Made by a program: the position numbers and the translations under genes
Virus record (IMG/VR): IMGVR_UViG_3300044627_004685
Location: 1 to 24,856 of that record
DNA from: a virus
Length of the DNA stretch: 24,856 nt
Reading direction: 5' to 3' (one strand)
Shown here: one piece after another, positions 6,170 to 24,856 of the stretch
Layout: each line of letters starts with the position of its first letter
How positions within the stretch are numbered: the first letter of the stretch is position 1
The notes under the pieces: model-generated
Databases searched by the model: none
What the model was told of the DNA's origin: nothing
What the model saw: the letters and a program-made list of their open reading frames with translations, nothing else

Positions 6170-6829
6170 ATGAATGTTATCTCCCAACCAGTATTGTGCC
6201 TAAATAACTTATGGCAGGCTTTGAATACAAAGACTGTCAAGGAGGCTCTTATTTCTATGCTGGGTGGAGTTGATGGTAATAATCCGCCTGCTCTTGCCAT
6301 AGATATGAACTTTCGTGTGGATGAAAATGGCAGCGTAGATTGGGATAATCCAGAATATGTACAGCCAGTTGATTGGGAAACTTGGAAGAATCTGCCTATA
6401 AGAGATTATGATCTTGCTATACATACCTCTAATATGACTATTCGGGCTCCGCGTGTCATTATTCAGCCAAACTATAGCAAGATGCCTGTAGTTACTCCTC
6501 GTCCGACCAAAGAAAGCATTCGTAAACGTGATGGTGGAGTATGTCAATATACAGGTCGTCAGATTTCTTGGAAAGATGGCAACATTGACCACGTTATTCC
6601 TCGTACCAAGGGCGGCAAGAATACGTTTGAGAATATGGTATGGTGTCATAAAGAAATCAACAGCAAGAAAGGTGATAAAACGCCAGAACAGGCTGGGCTA
6701 AAACTTATTCGCAAGCCAAAGGCACCAAGGGCTGTGCCAGTAAGTTCAACCATACAAATCGCACATCATCCAAGTTGGATACATTTCTTGGATAATGTCA
6801 CCGAAGTAAGACAAGAAATAGCATCTTGA
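6170..6829 (+). CDS. HNH endonuclease
   Basis: The 219-residue protein has a C-terminal HNH domain from about 116. It reads RKRDGGVCQYTG, then the catalytic DH pair (IDHVIPRTKGG, about 139-149), the Asn of FENMVW (about 155) and a final CHKEIN helix (159-164). The usual second cysteine of a CXXC pair is absent after C125. The N-terminal half resembles proteins that present an HNH fold as small DNA nickases or free-standing homing endonucleases. Free-standing HNH genes in phages spread as homing elements and can also process DNA at packaging. The gene has its own promoter and a good ribosome binding site, which fits an autonomous unit. Role in this phage is not determined. Confidence 0.85.
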   Translation: MNVISQPVLCLNNLWQALNTKTVKEALISMLGGVDGNNPPALAIDMNFRVDENGSVDWDNPEYVQPVDWETWKNLPIRDYDLAIHTSNMTIRAPRVIIQPNYSKMPVVTPRPTKESIRKRDGGVCQYTGRQISWKDGNIDHVIPRTKGGKNTFENMVWCHKEINSKKGDKTPEQAGLKLIRKPKAPRAVPVSSTIQIAHHPSWIHFLDNVTEVRQEIAS

Positions 6830-6854
6830 CAACAACTATACCCTGATCTATATT
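6826..6854 (+). promoter_or_regulatory. Strong promoter with an inverted repeat around its -10
   Basis: TTGACA (6826-6831), exactly 17 bases, then TATATT (6849-6854). ACCCTGAT (6840-6847) and ATCGGGGT (6855-6862) flank the -10 as an eight-base inverted repeat with one G-U pair. This could be an operator or a weak terminator for the upstream gene. Confidence 0.8.
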
Positions 6855-6870
6855 ATCGGGGTATTTATTT

Positions 6871-7215
6871 ATGACCTTTTTTTATATACTTCTGGCTGCG
6901 ATATTCATAATTGAGTTGTGTCTGGCGTATTCTTGTTATAAGTTTTATCTTATGATAAAGAAGATGGATAAGACAAATAAAACTACTATAGTTGAAAATG
7001 GCAACGCCATCACAGAAACACTAAGAATAATATTTGACAATCTAAAGCGTCAAACCAGTAAGGTGGATAAACTATCAGGCAAACATACAGAATATCAATC
7101 ACGATTTCATAGATTAGAACAGCACGTTCAGCGTCTTTTATCCAAAGACAAAGAATCTGTTGAACTACCAAAAGAGGAAAACAAAAATGAGCGACGAAAC
7201 AACAAAGCAGATTGA
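6871..7215 (+). CDS. Small membrane-anchored coiled-coil protein, 114 aa
   Basis: Residues about 3-27 (FFYILLAAIFIIELCLAYSCYKFYL) form one transmembrane helix. A charged, mostly helical region follows with heptad-like hydrophobics (about 45-95) and a hydrophilic, lysine- and glutamate-rich tail. The layout predicts an inner-membrane protein with a cytosolic coiled coil, possibly a spanin-, holin-regulator- or anchor-like microprotein; none can be chosen from sequence. It starts about ten bases after the expected transcription start. Its last 29 bases overlap the next gene. Confidence 0.65.
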   Translation: MTFFYILLAAIFIIELCLAYSCYKFYLMIKKMDKTNKTTIVENGNAITETLRIIFDNLKRQTSKVDKLSGKHTEYQSRFHRLEQHVQRLLSKDKESVELPKEENKNERRNNKAD

Positions 7216-7396
7216 GTTTGGCAAGTTGGCTATTGGCAGCAAGTTTTACTTGACTAAGCCTGTAGAATCAACTTCTGCTGTATTCACAAAGATTACATCG
7301 TCAAAAAATGATGCTGGTGTATGGTCCAATGCCAAGAATGGCTTTGGATTGACAACCTTTGTACAATACGATAAGCGTGTCTGGACTAAATCGTAA
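7187..7396 (+). CDS. Small conserved-looking phage protein, 69 aa, function unknown
   Basis: Starting at the ATG at 7187, with AGAGG seven to eleven bases upstream, the product runs MSDETTKQIEFGKLAIGSKF and so on. It is beta-rich: the segment IGSKFYLTKPVESTSAVFTKI, then a Val/Trp-rich end VQYDKRVWTK. No family is recognised. It overlaps the preceding membrane protein gene by 29 bases and ends one base before the clamp-loader-like gene, so all three are probably in one operon. Confidence 0.6.
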   Translation: MSDETTKQIEFGKLAIGSKFYLTKPVESTSAVFTKITSSKNDAGVWSNAKNGFGLTTFVQYDKRVWTKS

Positions 7397-7397
7397 A

Positions 7398-7868
7398 ATG
7401 CCAAGAAAAAAAGCAACAGAAACTGGTGCTGCTATAACAAAGCCCAAGGGATTGTTTGATCATATCAATCATGTCCGCGAAAAGCAGGACATTGATTATT
7501 TTGACAAACTTACCGACGCCGACAAAAAGAGTTGGTCCAACTTTATGGTGTGCCGTTTTCTAAGCATGCAACCCGAACTTATTGATACATTGAATCACGT
7601 ACAGAAATATAGCGGCGTATTATCTCCCAAAGAGTTTTATAAGGTGCTGATTGCTTTTGTGCCAAAGCGTAAGGCATTTTATCCATATATCAAGAGCAAG
7701 AGTGAGAAGTATAATCCTGCCTTGCTTAGTTTGCTCTCCAACCATTTTCAAGACAGCGAAAGAAATGTGCTTGAGTATATATCCATCTTGACAAAGGCCG
7801 ATATTGTTGGCATTGTTGGCAAATACGGATATAACGAAAAGCAAATCAAAGAACTAATGGAGGCATAA
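7398..7868 (+). CDS. Clamp-loader small subunit, T4 gp62-like
   Basis: The 156-residue protein has the pattern of T4 gp62. A W-SNFMVCRFLSMQPELI segment (about 46-62) is followed by a helical stretch with ...NHVQKYSG..SPKEFYKVLIAFVPKRKAFYPYIK (about 66-99), then a variable C-terminal helical part. In T4 gp62 the matching parts read YSKFMVENALSQFPE and a Pro-Arg-Gly-Lys segment. gp62 joins gp44 to load the sliding clamp for DNA polymerase. The ATG at 7398 follows the upstream stop by one base, so I use it rather than an upstream in-frame start. The similarity is short and by eye; the large subunit is not in the window. Confidence 0.6.
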   Translation: MPRKKATETGAAITKPKGLFDHINHVREKQDIDYFDKLTDADKKSWSNFMVCRFLSMQPELIDTLNHVQKYSGVLSPKEFYKVLIAFVPKRKAFYPYIKSKSEKYNPALLSLLSNHFQDSERNVLEYISILTKADIVGIVGKYGYNEKQIKELMEA

Positions 7869-14479: not shown

Positions 14480-15223
14480 ATGAAAATATCAGTAATAGGA
14501 CACGGACATTTGGCATATATAACTGCCGCTTGTATGGAACAATTTCATCAAGTAAATGTTGATGATTCTAAGGTTGGAGATAGTGACGTTATTTGGGTTT
14601 GCTATGATACACCGGTCGATAAGGACGGAAAGCCAGATTCAAGAATCATATTTGAATGGTTGGGAAGAGTACTTCCATTTGCCAAAAATAATGCTATTGC
14701 TTTGATATCTACCCAAGTTCCAGTTGGAACGTGCAGAATGCTAGAGAACGTATATACAGATATCAGAATTGCCTGTTCTCCAGAAAATCTAAGGCGAGGT
14801 AGAGCAATAAATGATTTTCTGAACCCAGAACGAATTGTTGTTGGATGTGATAGATTCTCAAAAGATGTACTTACCGAATTGTTTCGTCCATTGTCTTCTA
14901 ATATAATTTGGATGAGTTTGGAATCTGCTGAAATGGTAAAACACGCATTGAATTCATATTTGGCAATGTCTATTGCATTTATAAATGAAATAGATAAAGT
15001 TGCAAAGGCGGTGGGAGCAAATTCGTCAGATATAACCGCAGGATTGCAAACAGACAAACGCATAGGTAAGTTGTCTTATCTAAAAGCCGGTGGTCCATAT
15101 ACCAACGACACACTTGGAAGAGAAATACATAACCTCATTCAATTGGATCAAAAATACAATCTTGGACTGTCTCTCATCCCATCAATCAAGAAATCGAACG
15201 ATGAACATTCTAATAACAGGTAA
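14480..15223 (+). CDS. UDP-glucose dehydrogenase-like protein lacking the catalytic cysteine
   Basis: The protein has the order of the UDP-glucose/GDP-mannose dehydrogenase family: GHGHLAY (7-13) for NAD, STQVPVGT (77-84), SPENLRRGRA (100-109) and EMVKHALN with Lys154 and Asn158. However, the block that normally reads GGSCFPKD is replaced by SYLKAGGPYTND (199-210), with no cysteine. The family is usually 390-450 residues; this one stops at 247 and lacks the C-terminal UDP-binding domain. The four-electron oxidation to a uronic acid therefore looks impossible; it may do another redox step or be a binding subunit. AAGGA precedes the ATG, and its last 23 bases overlap the next gene. Confidence 0.8.
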   Translation: MKISVIGHGHLAYITAACMEQFHQVNVDDSKVGDSDVIWVCYDTPVDKDGKPDSRIIFEWLGRVLPFAKNNAIALISTQVPVGTCRMLENVYTDIRIACSPENLRRGRAINDFLNPERIVVGCDRFSKDVLTELFRPLSSNIIWMSLESAEMVKHALNSYLAMSIAFINEIDKVAKAVGANSSDITAGLQTDKRIGKLSYLKAGGPYTNDTLGREIHNLIQLDQKYNLGLSLIPSIKKSNDEHSNNR

Positions 15224-16880: not shown

Positions 16881-17699
16881 ATGCCAAACATAATAGAAGC
16901 CAGACACGGTAAGTTTTTGATATTGCCAAACGACGCACTGGGGCAGGCATTGATGAACAATGGAGATTTTGAGCCACATTTTTATAATGTAGCCAAAAAC
17001 GTAATAAAACCCGGAGATATTTGTTTGGATTGCGGAGCAAACTTGGGATATCATGCAGTAACGATGGCAAAAATGGTTGGACCCGCCGGAAAAGTTTTGG
17101 CATTTGAACCATTGAGAGTAATATATCAACAGCTATGTGGTAATGTATTCATCAACGACCTACGAAATGTATTTTGTTTCAATGTGGCGTTAGGGAATGA
17201 GAACAAAATGATTCAAATGGACTATGTTGACGTAGATAGACCTCAAGGAATTAATATAGGAGCAACTAAAATTGGTGGTGGCGGGGATGTAGTACAAATG
17301 ATAAAAATTGACGAAGTTATAAGTTCGGGTGTATCATTCTTGAAAATAGATGTACAAGGATCTGAGATATTTTTATTGGAAGGTGCCGAAAAACTTATTC
17401 AAAATTCTAGACCTATTATGTTTATTGAAGTCGAAAACCAGTGGTTGAATTGTTTTGGGCAGAGTTCAGAAACATTGCTCAATAAAATTTTGTCGTTGGA
17501 TTATATACTGGTCCGAATAAACAATGAATATCCGTGTGATCACGTAGCTATTCCAAGAGAGAAAAAAGATTTACTTGATATTATAATGAAGGACGTTGGG
17601 TATCCAATACAAATCGTAGACGGAAAATCTGTAAAGTTGAATTTTGATAGAACTGATTGGCAAAAAGAAATAAATTACGGGGGATTTGAAGTATATTAA
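16881..17699 (+). CDS. FkbM-family SAM-dependent methyltransferase
   Basis: PGDICLDCGANLGYHAVTMA (about 44-63) is SAM motif I with the DxGANxG signature of FkbM proteins. VLAFEP (about 72-77) is motif II and FLKIDVQGSEIFLLEG (about 153-168) is the family's most conserved block. FkbM enzymes O-methylate hydroxyl groups of sugars or polyketides. In this island the natural reading is methylation of a sugar residue in the glycan. The length of 272 is normal. The stop TAA shares its last A with the next ATG (TAATG). Confidence 0.9.
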   Translation: MPNIIEARHGKFLILPNDALGQALMNNGDFEPHFYNVAKNVIKPGDICLDCGANLGYHAVTMAKMVGPAGKVLAFEPLRVIYQQLCGNVFINDLRNVFCFNVALGNENKMIQMDYVDVDRPQGINIGATKIGGGGDVVQMIKIDEVISSGVSFLKIDVQGSEIFLLEGAEKLIQNSRPIMFIEVENQWLNCFGQSSETLLNKILSLDYILVRINNEYPCDHVAIPREKKDLLDIIMKDVGYPIQIVDGKSVKLNFDRTDWQKEINYGGFEVY

Positions 17700-19066
17700 T
17701 GATACCATCTCGTTTAATTATATTTGATTTGGATGGCGTGTTGTTAGACGCCAAGGAAATTCATTATAATGCTTTGAATAAGGCGTTGGCTCAAATAGAT
17801 TATAGATATATCATATCCAGAAAAGAACATCTCTTCAAATATGATGGATTGAGTACCAAGACAAAATTGGATTTTCTGAAAAAAGATAAGCAATTACCTG
17901 AGCATGTTCACGAGCAGGTATGGAAAAATAAACAACTGTTCACGTATGAAATGTTGAGTGCAGTAGAAAAAAATGATAGTCTTGTAGATAAGTTCAAACA
18001 GTTGAAAGAACTTGGTTATACTATTGCCGTCTGCTCCAACTCTATCAGACAGACAGTAAACATTTCGTTATTGAAACTTGGACTTATCCCATACGTGGAT
18101 TTTTTTCTATCAAACGAGGATGTTTCTCACTCAAAACCAAGCCCTGAAATTTTTTTGCGTGCGATGATAATAGCAAACGTATCTCCAAAAAATACTATAA
18201 TAGTTGAAGACTCTTATGTGGGAAGATCCGCCGCCGAAGCATCTGGAGCAAGGCTATTTCCAGTTAGTAGCCCAAAAGATTTAAACGACAATTCTATAAT
18301 TTCGTTCGCGTATAACTTTTTAAACAAAAAAGAAAATTCTATGAAATGGAAAAATAATAAACTGAATATTTTAGTTCCTATGGCCGGTAGAGGGAGCAGA
18401 TTTGAGAAGGCTGGATATACATTCCCAAAACCACTTATTGACGTTGAAGGAAAGCCGATGATACAGTTGGTGGTTGAAAACATAAACATAGAAGCCAATT
18501 ATATATTTTTGGTATTGAAAGAACACTATTCCAGATATAGTCTGGAAACGGTATTAAACAATGTTGCACCGGGTTGTAAAATAATACAAATAGACTCTGT
18601 TACTGAGGGTGCCGCCTGTACAACTTTGCTGGCAAAGGAGTATATAGATAATGAACAGCCACTTTTGATTGCGAATTCGGATCAATATGTTGAATGGGAG
18701 TCTTCCAAATTTATGTATAGTATGGAAGCCGACGGTATCGACGGTGGTATTCTGACATTCACTTCCACACACCCAAAATGGTCTTTTTGTAAAACAGATG
18801 AAATGGGAGTCATAACGGAGGTTGCTGAAAAAAATCCAATATCGGACAAGGCTTCGGTGGGAATATACTACTGGTCTAAGGGTCAAGACTATGTAAAGTA
18901 TGCCGAAAATATGATATCCAAAAACCTAAGAGTGAACAACGAGTTTTATATTTGTCCGGTATATAACGAAGCAATTGCTGATGGAAAAATTTTTAAAACA
19001 TACACTGTTGACAAAATGTGGGGTCTGGGTACGCCAGAAGACCTGGACTTGTATCTGAAAAAGTAA
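17699..19066 (+). CDS. HAD phosphatase - sugar nucleotidylyltransferase fusion, 455 aa
   Basis: Residues 1-205 are a HAD-family hydrolase: IIFDLDGVLLD with Asp10 and Asp12, CSNS near 112-115, the Lys of SKPSPE near 146 and VEDS near 169-172. After a short linker, residues about 222-455 form a GT-A-fold nucleotidyltransferase. It starts LNILVPMAGRGSRF, with PKPLIDVEGKPM, TEGAACTTLLA, the metal-binding ANSDQYVEW and a closing MWGLGTPEDL. The two halves would remove a phosphate and activate a sugar-1-phosphate with an NTP. Which NTP is used cannot be told. Fusions of this type also occur in bacterial capsule loci. Confidence 0.9.
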   Translation: MIPSRLIIFDLDGVLLDAKEIHYNALNKALAQIDYRYIISRKEHLFKYDGLSTKTKLDFLKKDKQLPEHVHEQVWKNKQLFTYEMLSAVEKNDSLVDKFKQLKELGYTIAVCSNSIRQTVNISLLKLGLIPYVDFFLSNEDVSHSKPSPEIFLRAMIIANVSPKNTIIVEDSYVGRSAAEASGARLFPVSSPKDLNDNSIISFAYNFLNKKENSMKWKNNKLNILVPMAGRGSRFEKAGYTFPKPLIDVEGKPMIQLVVENINIEANYIFLVLKEHYSRYSLETVLNNVAPGCKIIQIDSVTEGAACTTLLAKEYIDNEQPLLIANSDQYVEWESSKFMYSMEADGIDGGILTFTSTHPKWSFCKTDEMGVITEVAEKNPISDKASVGIYYWSKGQDYVKYAENMISKNLRVNNEFYICPVYNEAIADGKIFKTYTVDKMWGLGTPEDLDLYLKK

Positions 19067-22304: not shown

Positions 22305-23615
22305 ATGAATTCAGACTATACTAAAGACATACAAGAATTTGTTGCTAGCATGCAACAAAAACACGGGGTTGTTCCCAAATTTGCCCACAATCTTGTGGCG
22401 AAAGACAAAAAGAGAGTGTATTATTCTGGCCCATACTTTGATGAAACAGAACTTGTTGCTGCGATAGAAACTTTGCTTTTTGGCAAATGGTCTTCGTCCG
22501 GAGAAACTTGTGCAAGATTTGAGCGAGAGTTTGGAAGACATATCAATAATAAGTTTTCGTTCTTTTGCAATAGCGGATCAAGTGCCAACTTACTATTGAT
22601 TGCTGCGTGCAAAGAGTATTTTGGATGGAAAGATGGCGATGAAATCATTGTTTCTGCGGTAGGATTTCCAACTACTGTATCTGCAATTGTACACAATAAT
22701 CTAAAGCCTGTGTTTATAGACATTGAATGGTCTACATTGAACTTTGATTTGGTAAAGATCGAAGAAAAGATAAATGAAAAAACCAGAGCAGTATTTTTGA
22801 GTCCAGTATTGGGGAATCCTCCTGACATGGATGAAATGCTCGCTATTACCAAAAAGCATAACCTTAAACTTTTGTTGGATAATTGCGATTCTCTTGGTTC
22901 TAAGTGGCGAGGGAAATATTTGAACGAATATGCCGTAGTATCCAGTTGTTCTTTTTATCCAGCACACGAAATAACAACACTTGAAGGTGGAATGGTATCC
23001 TCGGATATACAGGAAATTGTTGATTTGGCCAGAAGTTTTGCTACTTGGGGTAGAGATTGCTATTGCGTGGGAGCAGCCAACTTGTTGTGTAACGGTTCGT
23101 GTAATAAGAGATTTTCAAACTGGTTACCAGAGTTCCCAGAGCTTATCATTGATCATAAATATGTGTTTAATAGAATCGGCTGGAACTTGAAACCGCTGGA
23201 CCTCCAAGGCGCTATAGGACTAGAGCAGTTAAAGAAACTTGATTATATCTGTAAGACAAGACAATCTAATAAAGACGCAATACAATCTGCATTGAAGAAG
23301 TATGTCGATGGTTTGAATTTTCCAAACACATTTGCTGAAACAGATTGGGTTCCTTTTGGCGTGCCTATTATTTGCAGAGATAAAAAGCAAAAAGAAACGC
23401 TCGTTACGTTCTTGGAAAAGAACGGTGTTCAGACAAGAAACTATTTTGCTGGAAACTTGCTTGTGCATAATGGATACAAGCATCTCGACGATTATAAGAA
23501 ATATCCAGAATCAAACAAAGTTCTTGATCTTGTATTCTTTTTAGGCTGTGCTCCAACAATATCTTCGGATAATCTAAATCATATTGAAACCGTATTATCA
23601 ACATGGACGAACTAA
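22305..23615 (+). CDS. rfbH: E1/RfbH-type CDP-4-dehydro-6-deoxyglucose 3-dehydratase with [2Fe-2S] motif
   Basis: The 436-residue protein has the PLP-dependent DegT/StrS aminotransferase fold. FFCNSGSSANLL binds the cofactor phosphate; SCSFYPAHEITTLEGG sits where the PLP-binding lysine lies in aminotransferases, but here the residue is His221. Cys194, Cys252, Cys254 and Cys262 give C-X57-C-X1-C-X7-C, exactly the iron-sulphur ligand pattern known for E1 (C193, C251, C253, C261, His220), shifted by one. The enzyme uses pyridoxamine phosphate to remove the 3-hydroxyl of a CDP-4-keto-6-deoxysugar, the committed step to 3,6-dideoxyhexoses. It needs an electron-donating reductase (E3), not seen in this window. 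It overlaps the next gene by 13 bases. Confidence 0.9.
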   Translation: MNSDYTKDIQEFVASMQQKHGVVPKFAHNLVAKDKKRVYYSGPYFDETELVAAIETLLFGKWSSSGETCARFEREFGRHINNKFSFFCNSGSSANLLLIAACKEYFGWKDGDEIIVSAVGFPTTVSAIVHNNLKPVFIDIEWSTLNFDLVKIEEKINEKTRAVFLSPVLGNPPDMDEMLAITKKHNLKLLLDNCDSLGSKWRGKYLNEYAVVSSCSFYPAHEITTLEGGMVSSDIQEIVDLARSFATWGRDCYCVGAANLLCNGSCNKRFSNWLPEFPELIIDHKYVFNRIGWNLKPLDLQGAIGLEQLKKLDYICKTRQSNKDAIQSALKKYVDGLNFPNTFAETDWVPFGVPIICRDKKQKETLVTFLEKNGVQTRNYFAGNLLVHNGYKHLDDYKKYPESNKVLDLVFFLGCAPTISSDNLNHIETVLSTWTN

Positions 23616-24427
23616 CAATATTCGGCGGCTCTGGATTTGTTGGCAGCAATTTTGCCAAACTATATCCGCAAAAAAGCATAATAATGCCTCGCGACGAAAA
23701 TTGGTCCGAGAATTTGAAAGATGTGCTGTATCTTATTAGCACAACTCACAATTATCATGTCTTTGATGATCTTCATAAGGATATCAATACCAATCTCAAT
23801 AAGCTAATGGATGTATTGCCAAACGTTCAAGGCACGTTCAACTTTGTAAGTAGCTGGTTTGTATATGGCGAGGGATACACCAAATATCGCCCAGCCAAGG
23901 AAGGAGACCCGTGTAATCCCAAAGGATTTTATTCAATCACCAAAAAAACAGCAGAAGACTTAACAGAGTCGTTTTGCCGCACATTCCACAGAAATTATAG
24001 AATATTACGTTTGTGTAATGTAATTGGCGGAGATGTTGGTGCAGGAAAAAAGAAAAACGCATTGGAATATCTTATCGGAAACATTGTCAGAAACGAGCCA
24101 GTAAGCATATACAAAGGTGACAATTACAGAAACTTCATGCACGTTGAAGATGTATGCGCTGCGATAAACTTGGTGACTTACAGTGGAAAATTGAATGAAA
24201 TATATAACATAGGTACAGAAGAAAGCATTAAACTTGTCGAAATCATTGATTATGCAATCAAAAAAACCGGATCTACAAGTAAAATAACATACGTTGATGT
24301 ACCAGAGTTTCATCAAATAGTTCAAGCACCGAACTTCTTTATGGATTGCGAAAAGATAAGAAATCTTGGATTTCGTCAAAAATACACTATATTTCAGGCG
24401 GTGGATAAGATACTTGAAAAACTATGA
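23603..24427 (+). CDS. NAD(P)-dependent sugar epimerase/dehydratase (extended SDR), 274 aa
   Basis: IFGGSGFVGSN starts the Rossmann fold with GGSGFVG at 8-14; FVSSWFVYGEG carries the Ser of the catalytic triad near 84 and FYSITKKTAED gives Y110 and K114. Later blocks LRLCNVIGG, MHVEDVCAAI and NIGTEESIKLVEI are standard for this family. It starts inside the dehydratase gene (13-base overlap), which fits the usual next step of dideoxysugar synthesis, a 4-reductase or epimerase such as abequose, paratose or tyvelose synthases. Which sugar is made cannot be told from sequence. Confidence 0.88.
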   Translation: MDELTIFGGSGFVGSNFAKLYPQKSIIMPRDENWSENLKDVLYLISTTHNYHVFDDLHKDINTNLNKLMDVLPNVQGTFNFVSSWFVYGEGYTKYRPAKEGDPCNPKGFYSITKKTAEDLTESFCRTFHRNYRILRLCNVIGGDVGAGKKKNALEYLIGNIVRNEPVSIYKGDNYRNFMHVEDVCAAINLVTYSGKLNEIYNIGTEESIKLVEIIDYAIKKTGSTSKITYVDVPEFHQIVQAPNFFMDCEKIRNLGFRQKYTIFQAVDKILEKL

Positions 24428-24856
24428 ACATAGCAATGTTGTGGCACGGAGATGAAAATCAACCAGAGGAGTATTGGAACTGTCCTCTCGGACTTTCATT
24501 TGCCTTCAAGCGATTGGGACATAACGTAGATGTATATAAGTTTGATGCCGCTAACTGTAATTTGGATAGATTGTATCCAAATATAGAAAAATATGACTTC
24601 GTAAGCGTTTTTTGGCCTTGGACATCGCCTTCTCTCGATAGTTCTCTAAATAAACTAAAGACTATTAGTAAAACAAAACTGATACTTGATATGGGAGACG
24701 AGCCACAGACATTTGGTCAGGGATTTGAGCGAGCAAAAATAGCGGATGCGATATATACACCGGACGCGAGATGTTGTGCAAGATATAAGGAGATGGGATT
24801 TAAACACGTTCATTGGCTCAACCACTGGGGAGATGAGTTTTTATTTAAATATAAAG
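24424..24856 (+). CDS. Glycosyltransferase-like protein (CgeB/GT4-type N-terminus), 3' partial
   Basis: ATGA joins this gene to the previous stop. The 144 visible residues begin MNIAMLWHGDEN and include CPLGLSFAFKRLGHNVDVYKFD, FVSVFWPWTSPSL, LILDMGDEPQTFGQGFERAK, IYTPDARCCARYKEMGFKHV and HWLNHWGDEFLF. This is the N-terminal Rossmann half of GT-B proteins of the CgeB type, in which a D-x-E-P motif and a terminal W-GD pattern occur. The donor-binding half lies beyond the window edge, so activity and length are open. The glycan island therefore continues to the right. Confidence 0.75.
   Translation, partial: MNIAMLWHGDENQPEEYWNCPLGLSFAFKRLGHNVDVYKFDAANCNLDRLYPNIEKYDFVSVFWPWTSPSLDSSLNKLKTISKTKLILDMGDEPQTFGQGFERAKIADAIYTPDARCCARYKEMGFKHVHWLNHWGDEFLFKYK

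Follow-up and report, generated by a model that had tools for sequence, protein, structure and literature searches.

Does a phage carry its own chemistry for a 3,6-dideoxysugar, and on which nucleotide would the sugar be built? Sugars of this class, the 3,6-dideoxyhexoses, serve as dominant surface epitopes and as phage receptors, and the question is raised by two genes near the right end of IMGVR_UViG_3300044627_004685. This complete IMG/VR virus record of 24,856 bases is the window of the present analysis. A first-pass annotation had read the two genes as an RfbH-like enzyme of dideoxysugar synthesis, overlapped by a 4-reductase/epimerase-like short-chain dehydrogenase/reductase (SDR). Both open reading frames (ORFs) were found where it had placed them, at 22305-23615 and 23603-24427 on the plus strand, and share 13 nt. 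We consider it fairly probable that this gene pair is a two-step 3,6-dideoxyhexose module, whose substrate is more likely a thymidine diphosphate (dTDP) than a cytidine diphosphate (CDP) sugar, and that the host supplies substrate and electrons. The features of the locus are the following (NDP, nucleoside diphosphate; PLP, pyridoxal 5'-phosphate).

22305..23615, plus strand: predicted long-loop E1/RfbH-like sugar 3-dehydratase, 436 amino acids (profile, PDB, alignment, AlphaFold model)
22884..22886, plus strand: codon of Cys194 (E1 C193), cluster ligand by alignment, invariant in 112/112 rows
22965..22967, plus strand: codon of His221 (E1 H220), in place of the PLP lysine, invariant in 112/112 rows
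23058..23066, plus strand: codons of Cys252-Tyr-Cys254 (E1 C251 and C253), by alignment
23067..23099, plus strand: 11-residue loop between the conserved ligands (7 in E1), holding the non-conserved Cys262 (codon 23088-23090)
23100..23102, plus strand: codon of Cys266 (E1 C261), fourth cluster ligand by alignment, invariant in 112/112 rows
23603..24427, plus strand: compact extended SDR, 274 amino acids, probable NDP-4-keto-sugar reductase (or 4-epimerase), 13-nt overlap with the dehydratase gene
24424..24856, plus strand: glycosyltransferase gene, truncated by the window end, 4-nt overlap with the SDR stop

The predicted dehydratase and its putative cluster ligands

The 436-residue protein matched the DegT/DnrJ/EryC1 profile at 9e-70 and the RfbH model NF011936 at 9e-104, the latter with 347.5 bits and so below the model's cut-off of 423. 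Its best solved relatives were the E1 structures 3bcx (5e-71) and 3bb8 (8e-70). By these sequence comparisons the kinship to E1/RfbH is one of homology and not of chance. The proteins were aligned in 112 non-redundant rows (31 viral, 80 from a genome collection, and E1; a ColD-like outgroup row was not counted). Identical proteins, rows shorter than 300 residues and rows matching fewer than about 250 residues had been dropped, and the genome-collection rows come from the 80 best loci of a longer list. H221 aligned with E1 H220, and C194, C252, C254 and C266 aligned with E1 C193, C251, C253 and C261. All five residues were invariant in the 112 rows, which confirmed the histidine reported at the place of the PLP lysine. 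The name RfbH-like holds for the homology, the histidine and the four cysteines, but not at the level of the RfbH cut-off.

The exact E1 spacing C-X57-C-X-C-X7-C had also been reported. The letters of this motif are present in the window protein (C194, C252, C254, C262). However, the position of C262 holds a cysteine in only 12 of the 31 viral rows and never in the other 81, and a smaller alignment places it opposite E1 C257. C262 is disfavoured as the fourth cluster ligand, whereas C266 is invariant, and the exact spacing is rejected by alignment and conservation, with 11 residues between C254 and C266. On this alignment the conserved ligand motif is C-X57-C-X-C-X11-C. Since the loop exceeds that of E1 by four residues and the invariant residue opposite E1 C261 is C266, the agreement with X7 is coincidental.

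An AlphaFold model of the dehydratase, built from 44 rows, had a mean predicted local distance difference test score (pLDDT) of 91.4. It was closest to E1 (3bb8 and 3bcx: Z 49.9 and 49.7 over 405 and 404 residues, root-mean-square deviation 2.4, 32% identity), and aminotransferases and ColD ranked below E1, from Z 47.1 downward. At the sequence level the protein has the traits of a [2Fe-2S]-type 3-dehydratase, a histidine for the PLP lysine and cysteines at all four ligand positions. ColD (GDP-4-keto-6-deoxymannose 3-dehydratase; 2gms) has the histidine and the fold as well. It is described as free of a cluster in PMC8987622, and the C-X-C...C ligands that are missing from aligned ColD are present in the window enzyme as C252, C254 and C266.

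An aminotransferase that adds an amino group at C4, as most of the DegT family do, would have the same fold family. The enzyme might also resemble SpnQ (dTDP-4-keto-2,6-dideoxyglucose 3-dehydratase), which according to PMC8987622 can transaminate without its reductase; for E1 and ColD the paper notes that no transaminase activity was seen. With a histidine at the catalytic lysine position and four ligand cysteines in every one of the 112 rows, we regard such an activity as very improbable.

The long-loop clade and its paired SDR

The loop between the third and the fourth ligand is 11 residues long in 38 rows, 12 in a single row (locus L042), 10 in four rows and 7 in the remaining 69. The viral rows have 11 residues in 30 of 31 cases and 12 in the remaining one, and eight genome-collection rows have 11, whereas E1 and the other 72 rows have 7 or 10. 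When the loop columns were excluded from the tree calculation, all 39 long-loop rows fell together on one side of a branch with a support of 99 in the Shimodaira-Hasegawa-like approximate likelihood-ratio test, and loop length required one change; the trees were made by a quick method with this support value only. The long-loop rows are 31 from viruses or phages and eight from the genome collection (L052-L059), whose contigs include Polyangiaceae, Nitrosomonadaceae, Bacteriovoracales and Prochlorococcus. Some of these eight contigs are short pieces of metagenome-assembled or single-amplified genomes (MAGs or SAGs; L056 4.2 kb, L057 5.8 kb) and possibly viral. Since some members sit among ordinary bacterial genes (QueA and Tgt near the long-loop gene of L053, a carbamoyltransferase near that of L055), the family appears to be common to phages and bacteria.

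The relatives on genome-collection contigs could also mean that the window is bacterial DNA misassigned to a virus record. This we hold to be extremely improbable. The window contains phage-family genes (RNA ligase/tail-fibre attachment catalyst, exonuclease, deoxynucleoside monophosphate kinase), several viral contigs share an identical or near-identical region, and a relative with 53.5% identity lies in the complete genome of the isolated cyanophage S-B05, which settles the phage origin for the family. Among 50,697 annotated phage records 77 matched, and 7 of the 40 listed carry a relative of about 53% identity (Synechococcus phages S-H68, S-B05, S-B43, RB11-B and RN05-S, Marine virus AG-345-D19 and a 642-kb uncultured phage). 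The other 33 among the matches listed have 34% identity or less.

A matching SDR (40-100% identity) was found in 46 of 55 long-loop loci. It adjoins the dehydratase gene in 44 of them and lies 3.7 kb away in two cyanophage loci; the paired loci include L052-L056, L058 and L059 of the genome collection. Nothing in the 72 short-loop loci matched the window SDR at more than 30% identity. The pairing count, like the neighbourhood count given below, was made without L042-L044 (12-residue loop) and the fragments L047 and L049, and one set (A2) omits L048 because of a stop-codon error.

The residues G8, G11, G14, S83, Y110 and K114 of the SDR are invariant in 25 of 25 rows, and the traits of an extended SDR, a glycine-rich NAD(P) motif and Ser/Tyr-X3-Lys, were found. 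RmlB-type 4,6-dehydratases have a Thr-Asp-Glu signature beside Tyr-X3-Lys. The window SDR has S-W-F at this T-D-E of RmlB (STDEVYG in L016), and a function as 4,6-dehydratase was rejected on this ground. Its AlphaFold model (pLDDT 90.9) gave 50 listed structural matches with Z 27.2-30.5, among them 4-epimerases, 4,6-dehydratases, 4-reductases and others. Because NDP-sugar SDRs match about equally, the model does not tell a reductase from an epimerase. From its sequence the protein is a probable NDP-4-keto-sugar reductase (or 4-epimerase), and the earlier description of an overlapping SDR of this type held.

We infer the following route, including its cluster, nucleotide, electron donor, stereochemistry and glycan target. 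The long-loop E1 relative would join pyridoxamine 5'-phosphate (PMP) to an NDP-4-keto-6-deoxyhexose as a Schiff base, H221 would take the PMP proton and the C3 hydroxyl would depart. A [2Fe-2S] cluster on C194, C252, C254 and C266 would deliver two electrons to give an NDP-4-keto-3,6-dideoxyhexose, of which the SDR would reduce C4. The overlapping PF13524 glycosyltransferase would probably put the sugar onto a cell-surface or virion glycan. The substrate would come from the host, dTDP-4-keto-6-deoxyglucose of the rhamnose route being likelier than a CDP sugar, and the electrons would be drawn from ferredoxin or flavodoxin systems of the host, in the manner reported for SpnQ. PMC8987622 gives for this class a PMP Schiff base, a histidine base/acid and a cluster reduced by E3 (for E1) or by ferredoxin/flavodoxin (for SpnQ). 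There SpnQ is described as a 3-dehydratase with a four-cysteine [2Fe-2S] cluster, which acts on a dTDP sugar and is served by ferredoxin/flavodoxin reductases. Likened by description and not by sequence, SpnQ shows the likely working mode here, although it belongs to an antibiotic sugar pathway, unlike the window enzyme.

As the rhamnose precursor dTDP-4-keto-6-deoxyglucose and the ferredoxin pool of the host would supply the rest, the phage would need only two genes and a transferase. If this is true, the pair is a minimal two-enzyme add-on to the host rhamnose precursor and an inexpensive means of changing the surface of the virion or of the infected cell; such a change could, for instance, exclude competing phages. 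More tentatively, and at somewhat less than an even chance, the clade as a whole may be a distinct [2Fe-2S] 3-dehydratase subfamily of aquatic phages and scattered bacteria, with an 11-residue loop and a dedicated compact SDR, which makes dTDP-linked 3,6-dideoxyhexoses to re-coat the infected cell or the virion with a sugar not made by the host, while the host supplies the rest.

Related dehydratases of other types were also seen. Cellular dehydratases with a 10-residue loop occur in L062, L067, L070 and L091 (Chloroflexota, Spirochaetota), at two places on the tree. The viral dehydratase with the 12-residue loop (L042:10001-11248, also in L043 and L044) stands at the base of the long-loop branch. 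In L042 an RmlB-like gene (304 bits, under the cut-off) and a gene for GMD, GDP-mannose 4,6-dehydratase (557 bits, over the cut-off), follow 2-4 kb downstream. L016 encodes at 6540-7703 (L017 at 3874) a second DegT protein with histidine at the lysine position (FGHQVQSVEGG), which keeps the first cysteine (DNCEN) and is without the C-X-C...C ligands. Since this protein looks like a ColD-type 3-dehydratase, the L016 phage may have two kinds of 3-dehydratase.

The nucleotide of the substrate

Genes for nucleotide-sugar synthesis were counted within 6 kb of the dehydratase genes, with loci grouped at 85% identity; the groups are not fully independent and some neighbourhoods are truncated by contig ends. 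Near the 25 long-loop groups RmlB (dTDP-glucose 4,6-dehydratase) was found 6 times, RfbG (CDP-glucose 4,6-dehydratase) 0, GMD 3, RmlA 2 and RfbF 0 times. The corresponding counts near the 64 short-loop groups were 4, 37, 4, 7 and 28. RmlB against RfbG differed between long- and short-loop groups with p = 2.0e-5 (Fisher), and these counts make a dTDP sugar likelier than a CDP sugar for the long-loop enzymes. NCBIfam models assigned 36 of 66 SDRs near short-loop genes to CDP-glucose 4,6-dehydratase at 1e-60 and 3 to RmlB, and 24 of 33 nucleotidyltransferases to RfbF and 6 to RmlA; these proteins had been picked by motif from 44 and 31 of the 72 short-loop loci, respectively.

Single loci gave the same picture. 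In L054, RmlA (388 over a cut-off of 360.65 bits) and RmlB (441 over 365.1) lie divergent from the adjoining SDR-dehydratase pair, and L059 repeats this gene order at 84-87% identity. In L052, RmlB (470 bits) and RmlA (434 bits) score above the NCBIfam cut-offs and are one glycosyltransferase gene away from the pair. In Marine virus AG-345-D19 the genes for RmlB, SDR and dehydratase follow one another directly, with RmlB at 362 bits, just below the cut-off of 365.1, and S-H68 and S-B05 have RmlB- and RmlC-like genes within the cluster. RmlC (PF00908) was found in 0 of 10 viral records and was no help.

The canonical CDP pathway would use CDP-4-keto-6-deoxyglucose and a dedicated E3 and lead to a sugar of the abequose, paratose, tyvelose or ascarylose type. 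E1 is indeed the closest characterised enzyme to the window dehydratase. However, the window protein falls short of the RfbH equivalog cut-off, RfbG is near none of the 25 long-loop groups, and a profile search of 26 viral or phage records that carry relatives found RfbG over the cut-off in none. Among all 34 records searched, two passed it, namely the genomes of L053 and L054. For L053, RfbG and RfbF stand with their own short-loop RfbH (750 bits) on another contig; the case of L054, which favours the CDP pathway, is given below. Altogether we consider this pathway improbable. Of the phage 3,6-dideoxysugar chemistry first proposed, a PMP/[2Fe-2S]-type 3-dehydratase coupled to an SDR in a glycosyltransferase island is retained and the CDP pathway is not, since the glucose-type 4,6-dehydratase, wherever one is found close to long-loop genes, is the dTDP one. 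The genomes of L053 and L056 (G030 and G033) each hold a short-loop-like RfbH (750 and 720 bits, over the cut-off) and a long-loop one on different contigs, and unless the MAG/SAG bins are mixed these are probably separate systems.

A guanosine diphosphate (GDP) route has more in its favour. GMD would supply GDP-4-keto-6-deoxymannose, the E1-like enzyme would remove O3 and the SDR would make a GDP-colitose-like sugar. GMD genes are present in L016, L017, L018, L019 and L040, which are outer members of the window's own branch; the three that were scanned score 350-364 bits, below the cut-off of 415. Each has a member of a RecA/UvsX-like gene family (scanned in one case) at a distance of one to three genes, and the L040 GMD keeps its place by the RecA/UvsX-like gene with the E1-like gene more than 8 kb away, so GMD may be a phage gene unrelated to the pathway. 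No GMD was found near the eight genome-collection long-loop genes, and PF16363 matched only the paired SDR, once each, in the 12 records that were searched with it out of the 15 in the window's group. We regard the GDP route as unlikely, if less so than the CDP pathway.

Several results weigh against a dTDP-based two-step module. The dehydratase model was less confident near the cluster loop (block means 75-83), and 9 of the 55 long-loop loci are without a matching SDR. RmlB is near only 6 of the 25 long-loop groups, and the comparison of RmlA with RfbF reached no more than p = 0.054. One contig of the L054 genome holds RfbF and RfbG at a distance of about 17 kb from the long-loop gene, no second RfbH was found in this genome at 1e-40, and a CDP sugar may therefore be used there. 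The L052 genome has an RfbG-like match below the cut-off (216.9 of 278.45 bits). The nearest outer relatives of the window, L016, L018, L019 and L040, carry GMD, which fits a GDP sugar; that of L040 is beyond 6 kb and so outside the neighbourhood count. In the window's group the PF16363 result applies here as well, and neither RmlB nor GMD was found in its 15 loci. At 1e-30, neither the RmlB nor the RfbG model matched any of the 10 group records searched with both (L002-L004, L006, L007, L009, L011, L014, L015, L020). Since no 4,6-dehydratase was found there, these searches do not fix the nucleotide for the phage group to which the window belongs. By judgement, we give about one half to dTDP, about one quarter to GDP and about one eighth to CDP.

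The neighbours were scanned in six of the nine loci without a matching SDR (all except L037, L057 and L136). In five (L022, L036, L038, L039, L048) an RmlD-like or epimerase-like SDR adjoins the dehydratase gene or is one gene off, and in L035 a formyltransferase is the next gene. As the scanned loci mostly carry another SDR, the recurrent unit appears to be mostly a 3-dehydratase with some keto-sugar SDR. Split transketolase-like genes lie beside the long-loop dehydratase in L039:8594-10202, L048:4311-5347 and L035:10783-11361; one L039 piece and one L048 piece were scanned (PF00456, PF02779) and the rest were assigned by eye. By analogy with yersiniose-type sugars, their products could add a two-carbon branch to the 4-keto sugar.

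It had also been proposed to search to the right of position 24856 for the remaining pathway genes. This was done on the flanks of L002, L003 and L005, which are identical to the window across 12,552 nt and run on 7.5-8.8 kb further. The right flank in the L003 ORF list (at least 100 amino acids, by eye) showed no CDP-glucose synthase, no E3 and no 4,6-dehydratase. Apart from the paired SDR, family searches of the 60-kb L003 record found nothing of the 4,6-dehydratase type, and they found no E3 domain either. In 20 viral records, 10 from the window's group, the E3 domains NAD_binding_1 and Fer2 (PF00175, PF00111) were likewise not found. CDP-glucose synthase was sought with PF00483 only, which matched 1 of 26 records (G020) and neither L002 nor L003; this negative is soft, because the search missed a weak domain known at window 17699-19066. 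The window's group includes a 297-kb record, and fragmentary records limit these negatives. E3 proximity is a poor test, because E3-like genes were near only 2 of the 72 short-loop loci too (motif scan). With no E3 and no 4,6-dehydratase in the window-group records searched, it is probably the host that provides both substrate and electrons. A soluble [2Fe-2S] ferredoxin of their own is annotated in S-B05 and S-H68.

Known systems and the surroundings of the gene pair

With E1/AscC/RfbH (CDP-4-keto-6-deoxyglucose 3-dehydrase; 3bcx, 3bb8) the window enzyme has in common the modelled fold, the histidine for lysine, the four cysteines and C-X57-C-X-C. It differs by its 32% identity, the loop of 11 instead of 7 residues before the fourth cysteine, the score below the equivalog cut-off, the recurrent SDR partner and a neighbourhood in which RfbF and RfbG were not found. 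To judge from the sequence, it would work like E1 or SpnQ but stands outside E1/RfbH proper in spacing and equivalog score. In cyanophage S-H68 the protein QBP05885.1, annotated as CDP-4-dehydro-6-deoxy-D-glucose 3-dehydratase, is a long-loop enzyme with 53.5% identity, and the SDR has 45.7% identity. S-H68 differs from the window by the RmlB- and RmlC-like genes in its cluster and by an SDR that is 3.7 kb off and not adjacent. The long-loop clade calls such automatic annotation into question, as phage genes named CDP-4-dehydro-6-deoxyglucose 3-dehydratase may use another nucleotide.

The locus had been called striking, which goes too far: phage rfbH has already been published as an auxiliary metabolic gene in PMC10653327 and, there called a reductase, in PMC11295528, and the gene is annotated in S-H68. 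RfbF, RfbG, RfbE and RfbI are listed for viral metagenomes in an excerpt of PMC3877843, the title of which warns of cellular contamination, and an excerpt of PMC12911398 lists RmlB, GMD and others, with rfbH not among them. Neither the long-loop subfamily nor its SDR partner nor a phage pathway linked to dTDP was found described in the open-access literature searched, as far as its texts were available. New here are the long-loop subfamily, the SDR partner and the dTDP context; phage rfbH was already known.

The pair is the last complete one in a glycan island that begins at about 10.8 kb in the window, reaches its right end and contains glycosyltransferases, a nucleotide-sugar dehydrogenase, an SDR, an FkbM methyltransferase and a HAD/nucleotidyltransferase fusion. 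The glycosyltransferase gene cut by the window end is complete in the identical locus L003 (292 amino acids, PF13524). In the fusion (window 17699-19066) a HAD hydrolase is joined to a sugar-nucleotidyltransferase domain, weak by direct scan, which is a possible source of NDP-sugar in the island. The ORF at window 14480-15223 is UDP-glucose dehydrogenase-like, with matches to the N-terminal and central domains only, and is overlapped by an SDR ORF. At the other end of the window, the ORF at 221-703 reads by eye like a macrodomain protein.

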